Positions 47,930 to 56,647 of a DNA stretch of 64,000 nt are shown here, in pieces; the first letter of the stretch is position 1; the number at the start of each line of letters is the position of its first letter. The position numbers and the translations under genes were made by a program. The notes below the pieces were generated by a model that was not told where the DNA came from, ran no database searches, and worked only from the letters and a program-made list of their open reading frames with translations. The stretch is from positions 1-64,000 of the forward strand of contig JAQYVF010000006.1 in assembly GCA_030145625.1 (NCBI GenBank), read 5' to 3'. The stretch is from Desulfocapsa sp. (GTDB taxonomy: Bacteria > Desulfobacterota > Desulfobulbia > Desulfobulbales > Desulfocapsaceae).

Positions 47930-48565
47930 ATGAAACAACAAACTCTCCCTGGTTTTTCTTCATCTAGTGGTCAAGGGGATTTTCCCTCCATTGACAGTGA
48001 TGGGTCTTATGAAGACAAAACTTTTTTGGCGTTGCACCAAGATGAAGGTCATAAGACAACACATACTGAGTTTTATGATTGTGTGTTTAAAAACTGTAAA
48101 TTTTTTAAAAGCTCATTCTTCTATTGTATATTCGAGAATTGTCAATTTGAAAATTGTGATTTGTCATTATCTGTAATGAGATCGACATCTTTTCGAGATG
48201 TAAGATTTTCTGATACAAAACTTTCAGGTATCCAATGGGCAGACGCGGCAATTCCTTTGGATGTTGGATTTTACAGGTGTTTGTTGAATTATTCAGGATT
48301 TATTGGAGTGGACCTCACAAATACCGAAATAATTGAATGCCAATTGAAAGATGCTGATTTTTCAGAGGCCAACCTGTCAAAAGCAAGATGTTGTTTCTCC
48401 GATTTTACAGGCGCAAGATTTGTGAATACAAACCTGACACGAGCTGATTTTACAAATGCCACCAATTATTCCATACATCCACATGGAAATAAATTATGCA
48501 AAACAAGATTCTCCTCACCCGAGGTGTTATCGCTATTGGATGTTTTTGATATTATTGTGGAATAG
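47930..48565 (+). CDS. Pentapeptide-repeat protein
   Basis: The 211-residue protein contains many A(D/N)LxX-type five-residue repeats: FYDCVFKNCKFFKSSFFYCI (residue ~48 on) and later DADFSEANLSKARCCFSDFT, GARFVNTNLTRADFTNATNY. They should fold as a right-handed beta-helix. The C-terminus (NKLCKTRFSSPEVLSLLDVF) is a cap seen in many such proteins. Some pentapeptide proteins (Qnr, McbG) protect DNA gyrase, but most have no known role; no catalytic motif is present. The gene is more AT-rich than its neighbours and has no clear ribosome site. It follows a truncated gene, suggesting it arrived by transfer. Confidence 0.82.
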   Translation: MKQQTLPGFSSSSGQGDFPSIDSDGSYEDKTFLALHQDEGHKTTHTEFYDCVFKNCKFFKSSFFYCIFENCQFENCDLSLSVMRSTSFRDVRFSDTKLSGIQWADAAIPLDVGFYRCLLNYSGFIGVDLTNTEIIECQLKDADFSEANLSKARCCFSDFTGARFVNTNLTRADFTNATNYSIHPHGNKLCKTRFSSPEVLSLLDVFDIIVE

Positions 48566-48704
48566 GCAGGGCCTACAATCCACCAGGTCCATGGGTTTGG
48601 AGTACAGGTAGGGGAAAATCTCAGATGGACATGTTTAAAAGAGGTTATCTCATTTGTGAGGTGCCATCCCATCTCTTATTGGAGTCGTTTCCTGGAAAAG
48701 ACCA

Positions 48705-50111
48705 TCACTTTTTAAATTCTTCTTTTTTTAATCCATATTTCCTCATTAACTTATGGAGTTGTCTGGTGGTAATGCCTGCTGCTTCAGCGCTTTTGTTGAT
48801 TTTTCCACAGTTTTCATCCAGTACCTCCTTGAGATAACAGCGCTCTATTTCTTCAACTCCCCTCCTGCGCACCTCGGAGAGTGGCAGCATGGTGTCCATC
48901 TGGACTCTGGTCAGCGAATCTTCTGTGGTGAAGAGCTCGGCAGGGAAGCTTTCCGGAGCAAGGACTGAAGCTCTTTCAAGGATATAGGCTCGTTCCATGA
49001 TATTTTCCAGTTCGCGAATGTTACCGGGCCAGGAATAATTTAAAAAGGCTTCGATAACCTGGGGATGGATATCAAAGATGTCCTTACTGTGAAAACGGTT
49101 GAGCTGGGTGATAAATACCTCGACAAGCTCGGAGATATCTTCTTTTCGATTTCTAAGTGCTGGCAACTCAATGGGAAAGACATTCAGGCGATAATAGAGA
49201 TCATTTCGAAACTTGCGCTCACTGCAGAGTTGCTTGAGATCTTCATTGGTTGCGGCAATGATACGTACATTGACTTTCACATCTTCTTCACCGCCGATAC
49301 GTTGAAAAATGCCCTCCTGTAGGACTTGTAATAATTTGATTTGCGCAGCAGGCGTTATGGTTCCGATCTCATCTAGGAATATGGTGCCGCCATGGGCAAT
49401 TTCAAACTTTCCCAGTTTACTTTTCACGGCCCCGGTGAAGGCCCCTTTCTCATGACCGAAGAGTTCGCTTTCCAGTAAAGTGTCGGGGATAGCCCCGCAG
49501 TGTACACTGATAAACTGTTCATCTTTTCGATTACTGTGCTTGTGGATGATCTTGGCAAGTACACCCTTGCCTGTCCCTGTCTCGCCGGTGAGTAGAACAG
49601 TACTTCTGGTTGGTGCCACCGAGCGGACATTCTCAAATACTGTCTTCATGGCAGGAGATTTGGTCTGTACAAAGGGAACCGAATCTTTGTCCCAAAATTG
49701 ATCGCGCAAATAATCCAGTTCAGATTGCACCTTTTGTGACTCGGTAAGGTTACTGGCAATCAGTCGGATTTCATCTGCAATGATGGGGTACATAATATAG
49801 TCACTGGCTCCTTGCTTGACAGCTGCCACTGCTTCTCGAAGTGTTTCCTGAGCTGTCATGACCACAATCTTGAGACTCGGATAACGTAGCCAGAAGGGTT
49901 GTAGAATGGCCTTGTACCCACTTGAGGCTGCTAAGACTTGGAGGATCTCCATATCGAGGAACAAGAGATCACACTGGAAATTTTTCAAACTATCGATTGC
50001 TTCCACCAGGGAAGATGCAGTGGAGATAGTGTCTTCAGCAGTGCAGCTTTCTTGAAAAATGGCCAATACATCACTATTTCGACTGATAAGCAGGATATTT
50101 CTCACTTTCAT
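48705..50111 (-). CDS. Sigma-54-dependent activator with a degenerate receiver domain
   Basis: The protein (468 residues from ATG 50111; a GTG at 50105 is equally possible) has three parts. The N-terminal receiver-like domain (1-115) has FLDME but lacks the usual acidic pair (ILLISRNSD instead of VDDE) and the lysine (YIMYPI instead of K-P). The AAA+ domain has GETGTGKG (Walker A), [14 protein letters not shown], which contacts sigma-54, and FLDEIG. The C-terminal Fis-like helix-turn-helix ends [20 protein letters not shown]. It activates sigma-54 promoters. The receiver probably does not take a phosphate, so another signal may control it. No kinase gene is next to it. Target genes are unknown. 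Confidence 0.88.
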
Positions 50112-50390
50112 TCCTCGGAAATAGCAGAACTTGTAGTTCCGTTTGTCTGATTTTAGGAACCGAAAGTTCTGGGTATGAATTTTCTCAAATTGGCAAAGGG
50201 ATTCCACCAAAAAAGAACTTTTCTATACACCCTGTCATACTGTTCAACAACAAAAAAGAGAATTTTAAGTTCTTGTCATTTGAATGCAATGGTGAGGAAA
50301 CCATGATTGAATAAGGAAATATGTATATGGCATGCCTATTGCTAGGGTGGAATTCAGGCTGTTTTTATCATTTTTTATAGAGGAATTGAT

Positions 50391-50573
50391 ATGAAAACAA
50401 AAAGATGCTCTGTATGCGGAGGAACAATCAGAATTTATCATGATCATGACATCGGAGATGATGTTTACTGCGATGAGTGTGAAAGGGAATTCAGGTTGAT
50501 CTCAACAAAACCTGTTAGAATGGAACCGCTGGAAATGTGTGATGACTATTACTTTGAAGAAGATGAATATTAG
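50391..50573 (+). CDS. Small zinc-binding protein with a LysW-like layout
   Basis: The 60-residue protein opens KRCSVCGGTIRI, then IGDDVYCDECEREFRLIS, then PVRMEPLEMC and an acidic end (FEEDEY). Two CxxC pairs and the order (CxxCG, short strand, IGD, V-C-x-x-C, E-F-x-L, PVRMEP) closely follow the amino-group carrier protein LysW, but LysW ends in EDWGE with a C-terminal glutamate that is the attachment site. Here the end is a tyrosine, so the carrier role is doubtful. No LysX/ArgX ligase is near. AGAGGAA precedes the ATG, so the gene is probably real. It lies ~460 bp before the polyamine genes. Confidence 0.65.
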   Translation: MKTKRCSVCGGTIRIYHDHDIGDDVYCDECEREFRLISTKPVRMEPLEMCDDYYFEEDEY

Positions 50574-50766
50574 CCGCAGTTGATTTCAGACAAGGTCCTC
50601 ATTATTACATGAGACTTTCATACAGGTCGTTTCATGGCGACCTGTATGAAAGTCAGGTACGCCATGTAAATATTTTTTAGACCGTGCGTACATTCCTGAA
50701 AATTCCTATCAAGTTATTCTTTCTGTTCTCTTCATCTTTCCAGTACACAAAAAGGTAAAAGCAGAA

Positions 50767-51021
50767 ATGGATCAAAGAAAAATTACTCTTGTAGGGGTTC
50801 TTGTCCCGGACCAATGGAAAGGGAATGGAGATGTGTCAGGTTTTGCCCTGTTGACCAATGATGAAAACAAATATGTACTTAGCTACAATGAAAGTGAAAA
50901 AGATCTCATGCAATTGCTTCGACAACAAATTGAGATAAGTGGCTTTCTGAAGAGCGAAGCGCAAGAAAAAACAATCCTTGTTACCTGTTTTCGGCCTTTT
51001 GGTTGTCGGGAACCAATCTGA
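50767..51021 (+). CDS. Small hypothetical protein
   Basis: The 84-residue protein (KITLVGVLVPDQWKGNGDVS, then LQQ-like helix and KTILVTCFRPFGC) looks like a small beta-barrel or OB-like fold with one helix, by hydrophobic pattern only. No motif or family is recognised. It starts at ATG 50767 after AAAGGTAAAAGC and ends 12 bp before the agmatinase gene. It may be co-transcribed with the polyamine genes. Confidence 0.6.
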   Translation: MDQRKITLVGVLVPDQWKGNGDVSGFALLTNDENKYVLSYNESEKDLMQLLRQQIEISGFLKSEAQEKTILVTCFRPFGCREPI

Positions 51022-51033
51022 TTCACAAATATT

Positions 51034-51981
51034 ATGACAAAGATGAACAACGTTGTAGGACAAAAAAAAAGTCCTCTTTATTTCGGTGCCAGGCCAGCTG
51101 ATCGATTGATGGCCGGCAGCCTGAACATCGTGGGGGTTGGGTATGACGGCACGGCTTGCTTCCGCAAGGGCGCTGCCCAGGGACCGGATGCAATTCGTCG
51201 GGTTTCCTCTCAATTGGAGTCCTATTCACCCAGTCTTGATCTGGATCTTGTTGAAATTCCTGTATACTACGATCTGGGTAATCTGAAGGTAAGCCAAAGT
51301 GACAATAAAGATGCAGATTGCAGCAAGGTCCATAATGCCTTTGCAGGCCTGACCCGTGGTATCGATTTGCAAAAGAATCATACGCGCCTTCTGGCTTTGG
51401 GTGGGGAACATTCCATCTCATACCCCTTTGTTTCCAAGTGTTTGCAGACGTATCCTTACCTGGTATTGATCCATCTCGATGCCCATGCCGACCTGCGTGA
51501 CGGCTATGAGGGGCACCATTTTTCCCATGCCTCTATTATCAGGCGTTGTCTGGATGAGTTCGGTCCTTATCATCAGTTGGCTCAATATGGTATTCGTTCC
51601 GGAACCAGGGAGGAGTTTGCCTGGATGCGGCAGGAAAAGACCCTGTTTGACAGCTTTGCCCGCTTCAGCGTCTGGTTGCATGAGTTGTCCAGAAAACAAC
51701 CTCTCTATCTCACTGTTGATCTGGATTATTTCGACCCGGCCATCTTACCTGGTACCGGTACCCCGGAAGCCGATGGCGAAGACTTTCGTTCTTTTTTGGA
51801 GATCCTTGCCATCCTGCGCAGCAAAAATCTGGTGGGTGCTGATGTGGTTGAATTGGCCCCGGCGATTGATCCAACAGGGAACAGTGCAATCTTTGCTGCC
51901 AAAATAGTAAGAGAACTTATCCTTGCCTTTCATGGTAACTCTGAGAATGACCGTTTTTATGAGGGTGCCTTGCATGACTGA
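51034..51981 (+). CDS. speB: Agmatinase (ureohydrolase family)
   Basis: The 315-residue protein has the ureohydrolase metal motifs: GGEHSISYPF near residue 125, HLDAHADLRD near 148, and DLDYFDPAILPGTGTPEADG near 228, which bind two Mn2+ ions. SpeB hydrolyses agmatine to putrescine and urea. The next gene, arginine decarboxylase, makes the agmatine, and overlaps it by 8 bp. The first three residues MTK could be extra (a second ATG follows at 51043). Confidence 0.9.
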   Translation: MTKMNNVVGQKKSPLYFGARPADRLMAGSLNIVGVGYDGTACFRKGAAQGPDAIRRVSSQLESYSPSLDLDLVEIPVYYDLGNLKVSQSDNKDADCSKVHNAFAGLTRGIDLQKNHTRLLALGGEHSISYPFVSKCLQTYPYLVLIHLDAHADLRDGYEGHHFSHASIIRRCLDEFGPYHQLAQYGIRSGTREEFAWMRQEKTLFDSFARFSVWLHELSRKQPLYLTVDLDYFDPAILPGTGTPEADGEDFRSFLEILAILRSKNLVGADVVELAPAIDPTGNSAIFAAKIVRELILAFHGNSENDRFYEGALHD

Positions 51982-53893
51982 TCGTTGTTCCTCATTGAGT
52001 CTGCAGGAAGGTGGTGATCCTTATAACGTCAAACAGTGGGGAAATGACTATTTTTCCGTGAATGATAAAGGACATCTCTGCGTCCTTCCGGAAAAGAAAA
52101 AAGATGGTCCGAAAATTGATTTTCTTCAGGTCATTGAAGAGATAAAGGACCAGGGAATCGCTTTTCCAACGGTTATCCGTTTTCATGACATTTTACGTTT
52201 TCAGGTTCGACTCTTAAATACGACTTTTGCTGATGCCATAGCAGACTGTGGTTTTACGGGCCGTTTTTTTGGAGTATACCCGATCAAGGTCAATCAGATG
52301 CGGGAGGTGGTTGAAGAGATTATTGATGCCGGGTACCCCTATGATTACGGTCTTGAGGCCGGATCGAAACCTGAACTGCTGGCCTGCCTGGCCTATAACG
52401 AAAATTGTGACTCTCTGACAGTTTTAAACGGCTATAAAGATGAGGATTACATACGTCTGGCACTGCTGGGTCGCAAGCTGGGCCGTAAGGTCATCATCGT
52501 TGTAGAGAATTTTTCAGAATTTGAACTTATTATCCGTCTCAGTGAAGAGATGCAGGCAAATCCCCTCATCGGTATTCGCACCAAGCTTGCGGTGAAGAGC
52601 AGCGGGCGCTGGGCCGCTTCCAGTGGTGATCGAGCCAAGTTTGGACTTACCTGCAGTGAAATTCTGGCTGGAATTGAGTTGCTGCGCCAAAATGGGATGG
52701 TGAATTGTCTTAAACTGCTTCATTTTCATGTTGGTAGCCAGATTCCGGATATCAGGATTATTAAACAGGCCGTAACTGAGGCTGGACGTATTTATGGCAG
52801 TTTGCGGCAGAGCGGTATCCCTATCGAATATTTTGATGTTGGTGGTGGCCTGGGAATTGATTACGACGGCAGCCGTTCTGCCACCGATTCTTCATGCAAC
52901 TACAGCTTGCAGGCGTATGCAGCTGATGTTGTCAGCGGTCTGCAGCAGGTCTGTGATGAGGCGGAGGTGCCTCACCCAAATATTGTCTGTGAAAGTGGAC
53001 GCTATGTTACTGCTCATCACTCCTGCGTCATTACCAATGTGGTCGACATCATCCATCAGGCTACCAATTCCTGTGTCACCACAGCAATGAGTGATGAGCA
53101 TAGCCTGGTCACGAATATGCGGGAAGCGGCAGAGAGTCTCTGTCTGGAGAACTATCAGGAAATTTTTAACGATATCCAGCAATATAAGGATGAAACCATA
53201 AACGCCTTCCGGCTTGGGGTCATTAATCTTGAGGAACGAGCAAAGATTGAGACCCTTTACTGGCAGGTTATCCGTCGTATTTATTCCATGTTGGGTAATG
53301 TGGATTTCATTCCCGAAGAACTTCAGCAAATCGAGGAACTCAAGGCCAGTCAGTACCTCTGTAACTTTTCGGTCTTTCAGTCGGCAGCAGACACCTGGGC
53401 CATTAAGCAGATTCTGCCTATTATGCCGGTTATGCGCCTTGATGAACAGCCTGATGAGCGATGTTCTCTGGTCGATATTACCTGTGATTCCGACGGGAAG
53501 ATCACCCGTTTTATAGCCAAAAACGGGTATGAGAAGACCCTGCTCCTCCATCCCTTACGAAAAGACGAGGATTACTATATTGGCCTGTTTCTTACCGGTG
53601 CCTATCAGGACGTTATGGGGGATATGCATAATCTTTTTGGGCGTCTTAATGAGGTCCATATCTATTGCGATGACGATGACCCCAATGATTTCTATATTGA
53701 AGAGGTTATTAAGGGAACGTCAGCGAAACAGGTCCTTGCCACTATGCAGTACAGTCCTGATATTATGGCCAGATCTATCAAGAAAAAGATAGACCGCCAG
53801 ATCCAGCAGGGTGTCATTCTTCCCAGGGAAGGGGTGCGGTTGATAGATTTTTACGAGAGTTGCCTGGAAGATTACACCTATTTGAAGATTTAG
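51974..53893 (+). CDS. speA: Biosynthetic arginine decarboxylase
   Basis: The 639-residue protein belongs to the SpeA family (PLP-dependent, alanine-racemase fold type). The lysine for PLP is in YPIKVNQM near residue 105, the pocket HFHVGSQIPDIR near 255, and the conserved VGGGLGIDYDG near 290. The C-terminal catalytic cysteine is in LVDITCDSDGKI (E. coli has CDSDG). It decarboxylates arginine to agmatine. I chose ATG 51974, which overlaps the speB stop; the open frame further upstream overlaps speB and has no ribosome site. The length (658 in E. coli) fits. Confidence 0.92.
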   Translation: MTDRCSSLSLQEGGDPYNVKQWGNDYFSVNDKGHLCVLPEKKKDGPKIDFLQVIEEIKDQGIAFPTVIRFHDILRFQVRLLNTTFADAIADCGFTGRFFGVYPIKVNQMREVVEEIIDAGYPYDYGLEAGSKPELLACLAYNENCDSLTVLNGYKDEDYIRLALLGRKLGRKVIIVVENFSEFELIIRLSEEMQANPLIGIRTKLAVKSSGRWAASSGDRAKFGLTCSEILAGIELLRQNGMVNCLKLLHFHVGSQIPDIRIIKQAVTEAGRIYGSLRQSGIPIEYFDVGGGLGIDYDGSRSATDSSCNYSLQAYAADVVSGLQQVCDEAEVPHPNIVCESGRYVTAHHSCVITNVVDIIHQATNSCVTTAMSDEHSLVTNMREAAESLCLENYQEIFNDIQQYKDETINAFRLGVINLEERAKIETLYWQVIRRIYSMLGNVDFIPEELQQIEELKASQYLCNFSVFQSAADTWAIKQILPIMPVMRLDEQPDERCSLVDITCDSDGKITRFIAKNGYEKTLLLHPLRKDEDYYIGLFLTGAYQDVMGDMHNLFGRLNEVHIYCDDDDPNDFYIEEVIKGTSAKQVLATMQYSPDIMARSIKKKIDRQIQQGVILPREGVRLIDFYESCLEDYTYLKI

Positions 53894-53921
53894 TACCTCA
53901 GGAATCAATTACTGAGTTTTT

Positions 53922-53944
53922 GCAGGAGCGGATTTATCCGCGAA
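53922..53944. repeat. Single REP unit
   Basis: GCAGGAGCGGATTTATCCGC followed by GAA matches the left unit of the REPIN at 15187 except for one base. It lies 28 bp after the speA stop; no partner unit is visible within 100 bp. Confidence 0.75.
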
Positions 53945-54001
53945 TGTGATTACGTTGTAAAAAGCTATAAAGTTAATCTCGGTTAGCAAGAGGAAGTTTT
54001 C

Positions 54002-55180
54002 ATGTCAAGAGTACTCATAATAGGGGCCGGTGGAGTTGGCTCGGTGGTCGTCCATAAATGTTGCCAGGTGCCGGAGGTCTTTTCTGAGATTATGCTGGCC
54101 TCCCGTACCAGGGAAAAATGCGATGCTATAGCCGCTCAATTACCCATACCCATCAAGACGGCGCAAGTGGATGCGGACCAGGTGGACGAACTGGTTGCTC
54201 TGATGAATGATTTTCAACCGGAGTTATGTATCAATGTCGCCCTGCCATATCAGGATCTGAGCATAATGGATGCCTGCCTGGAGTGCGGTGTTCATTATCT
54301 CGATACTGCCAACTACGAGCCTCGTGATGAGGCCAAATTTGAATATCATTGGCAATGGGCCTATCAGGAGCGATTTAAAGAGGCAGGGTTGATGGCTTTG
54401 CTCGGTTCCGGATTTGATCCCGGGGTGACCAATGTTTTTACCGCCTGGGCTTTGAAGACTGAGTTTGATGAAATCCGGGAGCTGGATATCATTGATTGCA
54501 ATGCCGGTGATCACGGTCAGCCTTTTGCCACCAATTTTAATCCTGAGATTAATATTCGTGAGGTAACCGCTCCTGCACGCCATTGGGAAAACGGTCAGTG
54601 GGTGGAGAGTCCGGCCCTTGAGACAGCTCAGGAATTTGATTTTCCCGAGGGGATTGGGAATAAGAAGATCTATTTGATGTACCATGAAGAGCTGGAGTCG
54701 CTGACCAGACATATTCCAAGCATCGAAAAAGCACGTTTCTGGATGACTTTCTCCGACAATTATCTCAAGCATCTTGAGGTGCTGCAGAATATTGGGATGA
54801 CCAGTATTGAGCCAATTGAGTATAACGGACAGGAGATCATCCCCCTACAGTTCCTGAAGGTCGTTCTCCCCGATCCCAGTTCTCTTGGGCCATTGACCAA
54901 GGGGCGTACCTGCATAGGCTGCTTGATTAAAGGACTGAAAGATGGCAAAGAAAAGCACTATTATATCTATAATATCTGTGACCATGAGCAGTGTTACAAA
55001 GAAGTGGGAGCCCAGGCCGTTTCCTATACCACCGGTGTACCTGCCATGATCGGTGCTCTGCTCATGCTTACCGGCGCCTGGAAGGGCGCAGGGGTCTTTA
55101 ATATGGAAGAACTCGATCCAACTCCCTTTATGGAGAAGCTGAACATCCACGGACTCCCATGGAAAGATCGTATCTTGTAG
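54002..55180 (+). CDS. Carboxynorspermidine / carboxyspermidine dehydrogenase (saccharopine dehydrogenase family)
   Basis: The 392-residue protein has an N-terminal NADP-binding fold (SRVLIIGAGGVGSVVVHKCC) and the family's VNVALPYQDLSIMDACLECG-like block (INVALPYQDLSIMDACLE), then LALLGSGFDPGVTNVF-like GSGFDPGVTNVFTAWALK. That pattern is typical of carboxy(nor)spermidine synthase (CANSDH/LYS1-like). It condenses aspartate semialdehyde with a diamine. Here arginine decarboxylase and agmatinase supply putrescine, so carboxyspermidine is the likely product. It overlaps the decarboxylase gene by 22 bp. Confidence 0.9.
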   Translation: MSRVLIIGAGGVGSVVVHKCCQVPEVFSEIMLASRTREKCDAIAAQLPIPIKTAQVDADQVDELVALMNDFQPELCINVALPYQDLSIMDACLECGVHYLDTANYEPRDEAKFEYHWQWAYQERFKEAGLMALLGSGFDPGVTNVFTAWALKTEFDEIRELDIIDCNAGDHGQPFATNFNPEINIREVTAPARHWENGQWVESPALETAQEFDFPEGIGNKKIYLMYHEELESLTRHIPSIEKARFWMTFSDNYLKHLEVLQNIGMTSIEPIEYNGQEIIPLQFLKVVLPDPSSLGPLTKGRTCIGCLIKGLKDGKEKHYYIYNICDHEQCYKEVGAQAVSYTTGVPAMIGALLMLTGAWKGAGVFNMEELDPTPFMEKLNIHGLPWKDRIL

Positions 55181-56316
55181 ACTTTGCTGTGCAACAGGTG
55201 CCAAGTCCTTGTTTTGTGGTTGATGAAGGGGCTATTGAGCGGAATCTGCAGATCCTTGCCGAGGTACAGGTACGTACCGATTGCCAGATTCTGCTTGCCC
55301 TGAAGGGCTTTGCCATGCCGCGGGTCTTCCCATTGATTCGCAAGTATCTGGCAGGAGTTTGTGCCAGTTCTCCGGATGAGGCCAGACTGGGGAAGGAGGA
55401 ATTTCAGGGAGAGGTGCACAGCCATGCTCCGGCTTTCAGCAAGGATGATCTGGATGTCCATTTGCGCTGTTGCGATCACCTGGTTTTTAACAGTTTCCAA
55501 CAGTGGAAACGTTTTCAGCCTCAGGTCAAGGCTTGTAGCAAGCCACCCTTATGCGGCCTACGTGTTAACCCCTGTCATTCAGAAACCGAGGTCGCTCTCT
55601 ATGATCCCTGCCGCCCCGGTTCCCGTCTCGGTATTCCCAGAGAGCAGTTTGCAGGCCAGTCTCTGCAAGGTATCAGCGGGCTGCATCTTCATACCCTTTG
55701 TGAAAAAGGAGCCGACGCCCTTGCACGAACAGCAGAGGTCTTTGAGAAACAATTCCAGGAAATTCTGCTCCGGATGAGTTGGCTCAACTTTGGCGGCGGC
55801 CACCTGATCACCGCGCCGGGATATGACGTGGACCTGCTCTGTGAGATAATCGATCATTTCCGCACCTCCTATGACCTGACGATCTATCTGGAGCCAGGTG
55901 AGGCCATTGCCATCAATACCGGAGCCTTGGTCACCACGGTACTTGACGTGATTGATAATGCAGGTCCCATTGCTATCCTCGATACCTCAGTGGCCTGCCA
56001 CATGCCCGATGTTCTGGAGATGCCATATCGGCCGGAGATCCGAAATGCCGCATTGCCGGGAAAATTGCCCTATACCTATAGTCTCGGTGGTATCTCCTGC
56101 TTGGCAGGGGATATGCTGGGGACCTATTCTTTTGCTCAGCCTTTACAACCCGGCGATAGGCTTCTTGTCGAAGATATGAGCCATTACACCATGGTCAAGA
56201 CCAATACTTTCAACGGTGTTCGACTGCCGTCCATTGCCCTGTACACCAAACAAGGCCATGATTTTGAAATCGTATGTCAATTTGGGTATGAAGATTATCG
56301 TTCTCGTCTCGGATAA
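55159..56316 (+). CDS. nspC: Carboxynorspermidine / carboxyspermidine decarboxylase
   Basis: The 385-residue protein is a PLP-dependent decarboxylase of the alanine-racemase fold. LALKGFAMPRVF near residue 37 has the PLP lysine, GLHLHTLCEKGADAL near 175 the active-site pocket, LNFGGGHLITAPGYDVDLL near 212 the glycine-rich loop, and YLEPGEAIAINTGALV near 240. The C-terminal catalytic part includes SCLAGDMLGTYSF (the conserved cysteine pair region). It turns carboxyspermidine into spermidine. Overlap with the preceding gene points to coupled translation and one pathway. Confidence 0.9.
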   Translation: MERSYLVDFAVQQVPSPCFVVDEGAIERNLQILAEVQVRTDCQILLALKGFAMPRVFPLIRKYLAGVCASSPDEARLGKEEFQGEVHSHAPAFSKDDLDVHLRCCDHLVFNSFQQWKRFQPQVKACSKPPLCGLRVNPCHSETEVALYDPCRPGSRLGIPREQFAGQSLQGISGLHLHTLCEKGADALARTAEVFEKQFQEILLRMSWLNFGGGHLITAPGYDVDLLCEIIDHFRTSYDLTIYLEPGEAIAINTGALVTTVLDVIDNAGPIAILDTSVACHMPDVLEMPYRPEIRNAALPGKLPYTYSLGGISCLAGDMLGTYSFAQPLQPGDRLLVEDMSHYTMVKTNTFNGVRLPSIALYTKQGHDFEIVCQFGYEDYRSRLG

Positions 56317-56333
56317 GCCCAGTTGCTTTCTCT

Positions 56334-56429
56334 TATAGGAGTCAGATTTCTCAACGAACAGGGCTTGGTGTGGTCCGCTTATCTGTTTTCGCTGTGTGGA
56401 GAGCTGTTCGCTGCTGAAGCAGCTTCAGA
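56334..56429. repeat. Degenerate REPIN repeat
   Basis: The left unit TATAGGAGTCAGATTTCTCA with ACGAACAGG is a mutated form of the REP core. The inverted right unit is CTGTTCGCTGCTGAAGCAGC and TTC (56404-56426), which when reversed matches the REP type with a different hairpin. A short open frame at 56396-56608 overlaps the right unit and I do not accept it as a gene. Confidence 0.6.
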
Positions 56430-56647
56430 GATCATTTCTTATTAAGTGGTCAGTCCTCCCTCCTCTTGCAGTTCTCATATTGTCCAATAAGAGACTCGTG
56501 CTCTTATTGCAGGATGTTCAATCCGCGCTTTCAAATGCACATCATAGGAAGTGTGAGGTGGTGGAGAAAACTGGACGGACCTTAGAAAAAATCCATGATA
56601 TAGAGTAGGATTAAATAAAACTGTTTCTATAAAAGGAGAATTTAACT

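Follow-up and report, generated by a model that had tools for sequence, protein, structure and literature searches.

A LysW-fold zinc-ribbon protein with a conserved acidic tail beside polyamine genes of Desulfocapsa sp.: a possible target of tail editing by a ligase and a peptidase

The window analysed in this study is a stretch of 64,000 nucleotides from Desulfocapsa sp. (contig JAQYVF010000006.1). An open reading frame at positions 50391-50573 of its forward strand runs from ATG to TAG and encodes a protein of 60 amino acids with two CxxC pairs and an acidic tail ending in YFEEDEY. The original prediction had placed this gene exactly, including its EEDEY end, and the LysW-type motifs that it named are found in the protein. 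The best Pfam match is Zn_ribbon_LysW (PF21344; E = 2.4e-5, 24.3 bits), slightly below the curated 27-bit cut-off; a paralog of the protein scores 42.1 bits with the same model. Matches to the two NCBIfam LysW/ArgW carrier models (E = 5.5e-6 and 2.1e-5) are both far below the cut-offs, with 24.3 bits for TIGR01206 (cut-off 53.2) and 26.3 bits for NF041070 (cut-off 75). A sequence search of the PDB matched LysW (3wwl) at 4.4e-5. AlphaFold predicted a five-strand core (pLDDT 82-87 over the first 40 residues) and a disordered tail (residues 51-60, pLDDT below 50). The six best PDB structure matches of this model are all LysW chains (probability 0.95-1.00, E = 0.004-0.21); no PDB match at E <= 0.001 was obtained in this structural search. 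Both CxxC knuckles and the LysW topology, by which a LysW-like zinc-ribbon fold is recognized, are present in the predicted structure. The fold is thus most likely that of LysW, as had been proposed, and the C-terminus differs from LysW, also as proposed, with EEDEY in place of EDWGE and no terminal Glu. An unrelated zinc-ribbon family, which had been named as the finding that would speak against this assignment, is ruled out by the six LysW structure matches and by the fact that no Pfam family outscores PF21344 on this protein. A chance reading frame is ruled out by conservation in other genera and by selection on the protein.

A sigma54-type -24/-12 promoter (TGGCATGCCTATTGCT; 50328-50343, + strand) is located 63 bases 5' of the start codon and agrees with the sigma54 -24/-12 consensus at 12 of 12 scored positions. 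Scores of at least 11/12 within 150 bases were obtained for 13 of the 18 genes of the subtype defined below; the corresponding figures are 6 of 49 for the remaining LysW-like genes and 8 of 772 for genes called mechanically in the same loci. A divergent gene (48705-50210, - strand) encodes an NtrC-type sigma54 activator, which comprises a receiver, an AAA+ domain and a Fis HTH, and relatives of which adjoin LysW-like genes. Its receiver reads DYIMYP, and receiver domains usually carry Lys before Pro; therefore, ordinary phosphorylation may not switch this activator. Farther away, positions 47930-48565 (+ strand) encode a 211-residue protein that by eye resembles a pentapeptide-repeat protein.

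Downstream of the LysW-like gene lies a hairpin with perfect 17-bp arms (50613-50654, + strand; fold z-score -6.0), which is perhaps a terminator or an attenuator. Hairpins of other sequence occupy the equivalent place in two other genomes of the genus (L026 and L023), and none was found in L025. The terminator scan did not call this hairpin; consensus sigma70 and terminator scans gave yields no higher than those from shuffles, and an Rfam scan of 48500-56500 detected no family above the gathering score. The next gene (50767-51021, + strand) encodes a small OB-fold protein of 84 amino acids (AlphaFold pLDDT 84.3), the Foldseek matches of which are OB-fold proteins, with SSB types among the best. 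Four polyamine genes follow on the + strand, in accordance with the predicted position of the gene upstream of such genes. They encode agmatinase SpeB (51034-51981; TIGR01230, 211.5 bits, cut-off 174.3), biosynthetic arginine decarboxylase SpeA (51977-53893; NF003763, 829 bits, cut-off 369), a carboxynorspermidine/carboxyspermidine synthase-like protein (54002-55180; NF043000, 422.5 bits, below the cut-off of 800) and carboxynorspermidine decarboxylase NspC (55159-56316; TIGR01047, 471 bits, cut-off 409).

This arrangement recurs in part in other genera. A neighbour clustering analysis covered 54 loci from 45 genomes of 15 genera, and 20 further loci were read later. Sigma54 activators are the most frequent neighbours of LysW-like genes (13 of the 15 genera, median distance 247 bases); because such activators are common in the genomes of these bacteria, the short distance counts more than the number of genera. 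LysW-like relatives adjoin polyamine genes in other genera as well: speB was found in eight genera (median distance 96 bases), speA in eight, and the carboxynorspermidine synthase-like gene and nspC in seven each. The OB-fold gene recurs in five genera at a median distance of 86 bases. ATP-grasp neighbours are Ddl-like proteins (five genera), RimK (four) and RLAN (three), and further recurrent neighbours are an ABC-transporter ATPase (six) and citrate synthase (four).

The LysW-like profile (A1) matched 80 of 257 genomes of the order. Twelve of these were left out, namely 11 with weak matches (E = 8e-6 to 8e-4), one of which (G063) has RimK, and G056, which encodes a canonical LysW, and 68 were used. 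The G056 protein (L147:170, - strand) ends in EDWGE and is distinct from the window type; therefore, both LysW types occur in the group. Relatives in three other genomes of the genus show 87, 80, 63 and 63% identity to the window protein, and its own genome contains two paralogs, both on contig C156. Named loci with LysW-like genes (Desulfogranum japonicum, Candidatus Electrothrix and Desulfobulbaceae MAGs) point to the order Desulfobulbales, and a profile search of genome contigs identified nine loci, which belong to records of the Desulfobulbaceae type or to MAGs labelled 'Proteobacteria'. Proteins of the window type are found in sulfate-reducing and cable bacteria. Genes in these analyses were called mechanically as the longest ORFs, a procedure in which some small genes were missed; for some genes, the Met closest upstream of CxxC was taken as the start. 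Among the matches listed in a search of open-licence papers, none concerned the group of the window protein or polyamine operons that encode a LysW-like protein.

The subtype of the window protein was delimited by an alignment of 21 members (A2), which was built before the RimK survey described below and represents 15 genomes, including three (G226-G228) whose proteins have tails without a Tyr end. The 18 subtype genes are these 21 members minus three paralogs of this genus. All 21 match PF21344 at E <= 0.01 (best, 1.8e-12), and they score 89-117 bits with the A2 model, which was built from them, compared with 61.5 bits for the next LysW-like protein. Fifteen is the number of subtype genomes identified and is perhaps incomplete, because approximately 11 LysW-like genomes of genus g27 were not read as sequence. 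When 395 genomes of the phylum were surveyed with the A2 profile, 13 gave matches, seven of them outside the order, but the profile is unspecific at this level because 5 of the 13 matches belong to genus g27, which has another LysW-like subtype. Among the seven outside the order, G320 and G328 seem to hold stand-alone relatives with acidic tails.

The tip of the tail is conserved. Between five genes of the genus and five Candidatus Electrothrix genes, amino acid identity reaches 0.90 over the final seven residues, compared with 0.57 for the core and 0.09 for residues 47-53. At the third codon positions of matching residues, the same genes have diverged equally in the core and the tip (0.56 and 0.57), indicating that the tip is held as protein. 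The subtype tails end in Tyr in 13 of the 18 genes and in N, A or D in the other five. In the wider LysW-like family, the tail varies in length and end and is acidic for the most part; raw counts among 67 proteins, which ignore relatedness, gave 28 ending in Tyr, 18 in Asp and 2 in Glu. Two loci of the Candidatus Electrothrix genus (L100:9905-10162 and L101:9940-10197) contain a second LysW-like gene, the product of which has a long tail built from Asp/Asn-Tyr repeats, and a LysW-like gene with a comparable Asp/Tyr-rich tail is present at L025:8994-9308.

The gene had been described as lacking a ligase. This holds for its own contig (C45) as far as RimK-family and LysX searches go, which gave no match there, but not for the genome, in which RimK is encoded on C156 beside the two paralogs. 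There, RimK, RimB, both paralogs and a MATCAP-type peptidase lie within 5 kb. The linkage to a ligase and a peptidase is a feature of the paralogs, and the window gene itself adjoins neither. In total, RimK (PF18030) was found in 39 of the 257 genomes: in all 15 genomes identified as having the subtype versus 24 of the 242 others (Fisher 3.5e-14), and, within the genus, in 4 of 4 genomes with LysW-like genes versus 0 of 16 without (2e-4), where genomes of one genus are dependent and the four positive ones may be one clade. The same 4 of the 20 genomes of the genus carry LysW-like genes, RimK and the MATCAP-type peptidase. The prediction had held that it would fall if no genome with the protein had an ATP-grasp partner; this is not the case, because RimK is present in every identified subtype genome and lies close to a LysW-like gene in several genomes. 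Of the 68 LysW-like genomes, 25 have RimK, out of the total of 39, and 43 lack it. Those without RimK include all 23 LysW-like genomes of genus g27, in which the LysW-like sequences that were read belong to another subtype. RimK lies <3 kb from a LysW-like gene in eight genomes of five genera (G000, G002, where the LysW-like gene is a remnant, G007, G009, G039, G126, G174 and G237), whereas random placement would give 0.075 in the 25 genomes with both, relatedness being ignored; in the other 17 of these 25 genomes, the two genes do not lie within 3 kb of each other.

Several loci show variations on this linkage. One 10-kb contig of G237 holds RimK, RimB, a LysW-like gene of another subtype and the four polyamine genes. 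In Candidatus Electrothrix G126, a RimB-type protease-RimK fusion protein (L107:8333-9724) adjoins a LysW-like gene, and similar RimK proteins of approximately 480 amino acids are encoded in L150 and L151, where no LysW-like gene adjoins them. A LysW-like remnant with an internal stop (G002:C13:103455-103586, L137) is located between RimB/RimK and MATCAP.

RLAN, another ATP-grasp type, was found in 79 of the 257 genomes and was not found in the genome of the window, which weakens the idea of RLAN as the general ligase. In Desulfogranum japonicum (G110), whose subtype protein (L125) has a tail ending in VNEY, an RLAN ATP-grasp gene follows the LysW-like and OB genes as the second gene downstream, and in G009 and G002 RLAN lies beyond the polyamine genes, together with GNAT and SET genes. 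These loci resemble the described RLAN ATP-grasp neighbourhoods, which contain GNAT, FGase and a DUF1704/QEGLA metallopeptidase: a single locus of G009 holds RLAN, GNAT, SET and MATCAP-FGase, and in G002 and G007 these lie on separate contigs. The present neighbourhoods differ in that they also include a LysW-like protein and polyamine genes. Neighbourhoods of RLAN, FGase and DUF1704 are reportedly treated in the study of ATP-grasp amidoligases by Iyer et al. (2009), in which modification of tails or peptides by these enzymes may have been predicted already. Pairs of a class-I glutamine amidotransferase and a Ddl-like ATP-grasp protein were seen near LysW-like genes in two loci (L080:10333-13081 and L093:5289-8036); by eye, L080 also has an aminotransferase-like gene and L093 an AstE-like deacylase-type gene after RimK, each a single-locus observation.

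The MATCAP-type peptidase on C156 is a protein of 682 residues that combines an FGase and a MATCAP domain (PF08014, E = 3.4e-104, 349 bits, cut-off 27), which bears the name QEGLA at NCBI. Its ORF begins 43 bases 3' of the second LysW-like paralog and is the sole copy found in this genome. MATCAP was detected in 7 of the 257 genomes: the four LysW-positive genomes of the genus; G029 and G129, which have their LysW-like genes elsewhere in the genome; and G021, which has no LysW-like match. In G009, the gene order is MATCAP, speB, a LysW-like gene ending in EEDDY and speA. HExxxH and [Q/E]EGLA are kept in all seven copies and, in the copy of this genome, align with human KIAA0895L. In the human enzyme, these motifs serve metal binding or catalysis, and mutation of E281 or E316, both predicted to be catalytic or metal-binding, strongly reduces activity; the enzyme takes the terminal Tyr and then Glu off alpha-tubulin, and the family also deglutamylates (PMC10499314). 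Not every subtype genome has MATCAP, as it is present in 5 of the 15 and absent from 10, and removal of Tyr by MATCAP therefore cannot be general. A tyrosination model built on MATCAP alone is also weakened by Electrothrix, where the tail tip is the same and MATCAP occurs in only one of seven subtype genomes (G129), as a divergent copy approximately 60 kb off. No bacterial MATCAP substrate was found among the matches listed in the search of open-licence papers, and the word 'bacteria' was not found in the text of PMC12393276.

On these grounds we tentatively favour, at somewhat short of even confidence, the interpretation that the window protein is a tail protein under nitrogen regulation, with a ligase and a peptidase editing its tail. 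The predicted fold, the conservation of the tip, the promoter, the operon context and the way in which RimK and MATCAP co-occur with and are linked to the family were presented above; that the tail is an enzyme substrate, in what order the steps proceed and what their physiological output is, we infer. The protein would be made under sigma54/NtrC control of the nitrogen type, along with polyamine synthesis. Its folded part (approximately residues 1-47) would serve as a docking body, and the disordered, strongly acidic -FEEDEY tail would be the working part. A RimK-type ligase, or in some relatives also an RLAN- or Ddl-type ATP-grasp enzyme, would put glutamate or another amino compound on the tail, from which the RimB protease and, in this genus, the MATCAP-type carboxypeptidase would strip residues. 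MATCAP could take off the terminal Tyr and thereby expose Glu as an acceptor, and the state of the tail may report or adjust nitrogen/polyamine status.

The main rival to tail editing, and a serious one although we consider it rather unlikely, is that the protein is a non-covalent acidic adaptor or regulator, in which the binding partner of the zinc ribbon and of the never-modified tail would be the NtrC-type activator, an enzyme of polyamine metabolism or polyamines as such. In its favour, the widest links of the family are those to the sigma54 activator and speB, above those to any of the ligases, and the mostly acidic tails of the wider family differ in length and end. However, the exact tip is conserved, whereas the seven residues that precede it are free to change; RimK also co-occurs with the subtype in 15 of 15 genomes, and the family is linked both to ATP-grasp proteins of three types and to the RimB and MATCAP peptidases.

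We regard it as improbable that the link to RimK is incidental, RimK modifying S6 only and sharing lineages with a LysW-like protein of unrelated role by coincidence. The RimK of this genome scores 464 bits with the S6-glutamate ligase model (cut-off 331), and ribosomal S6 may therefore be its only substrate; the 17 genomes in which the two genes are not within 3 kb also speak for this reading. The linkage within 3 kb in five genera, far above random placement when relatedness is ignored, and the all-or-none presence of RimK within the genus argue against it, as does the fact that the ribosomal S6 of this genome ends in SEEK, with Lys and no terminal Glu. In Pseudomonas, RimB trims glutamate chains added by RimK (PMC10092738 and PMC12239564). 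The RimK-RimB-RpsF system of S6 polyglutamylation involves the same ligase and protease families that are found here beside LysW-like paralogs; its substrate is S6, whereas the putative substrate here is a LysW-fold protein.

A true LysW-type amino-group carrier, to whose tail an amino compound would be bound and processed as in lysine/ornithine synthesis, is very doubtful: the LysW/ArgW carriers (PF21344; PDB 3wwl, 3vpb and 5k2m) are alike in size, two-CxxC zinc-ribbon fold and acidic tail, and ATP-grasp relatives of LysX are present in the genome and, in relatives, inside the same gene cluster, but the window protein falls below the PF21344 and LysW cut-offs, has Tyr in place of the terminal Glu of the EDWGE end (presumably the general carrier motif, of which G056 supplies a canonical example) and adjoins polyamine genes, and, because a whole-genome search with the LysX model (TIGR02144) gave a best score of 133 bits and none above the cut-off of 275.6, classical lysine/arginine carriage is unlikely in this genome.

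Tail editing, if it occurs, has a known parallel in the tail code of tubulin. Both involve a disordered acidic tail with an -E-Y end, and the TTL/TTLL ligases of tubulin are ATP-grasp-like; here, an ATP-grasp ligase and a MATCAP-family carboxypeptidase with HExxxH and [Q/E]EG motifs are encoded in one genome. The present system differs in that it is bacterial, is not proposed to act on tubulin, lacks MATCAP in 10 of the 15 subtype genomes and involves enzyme actions that are putative. We therefore hold it unlikely, though worth stating, that this is a bacterial counterpart of the tubulin code, in which a Tyr-ended tail is detyrosinated by MATCAP, glutamylated by RimK/RLAN-type ligases and trimmed by RimB as a reversible nitrogen-to-polyamine signal. 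If true, this would give the bacterial MATCAP (QEGLA) enzymes a substrate.

To our knowledge, bacterial MATCAP/QEGLA peptidases and RLAN ligases have no known substrate, and if the tail is edited, the LysW-like protein would provide a small, readily purified one with which both could be tested. RimK would then reach beyond the ribosome, the LysW fold would gain a role outside amino-acid carriage, and bacterial and tubulin tail editing would become directly comparable. Even without editing, the protein is probably a nitrogen-regulated zinc protein that is conserved beside the polyamine genes of sulfate-reducing bacteria and forms a part of their polyamine control.
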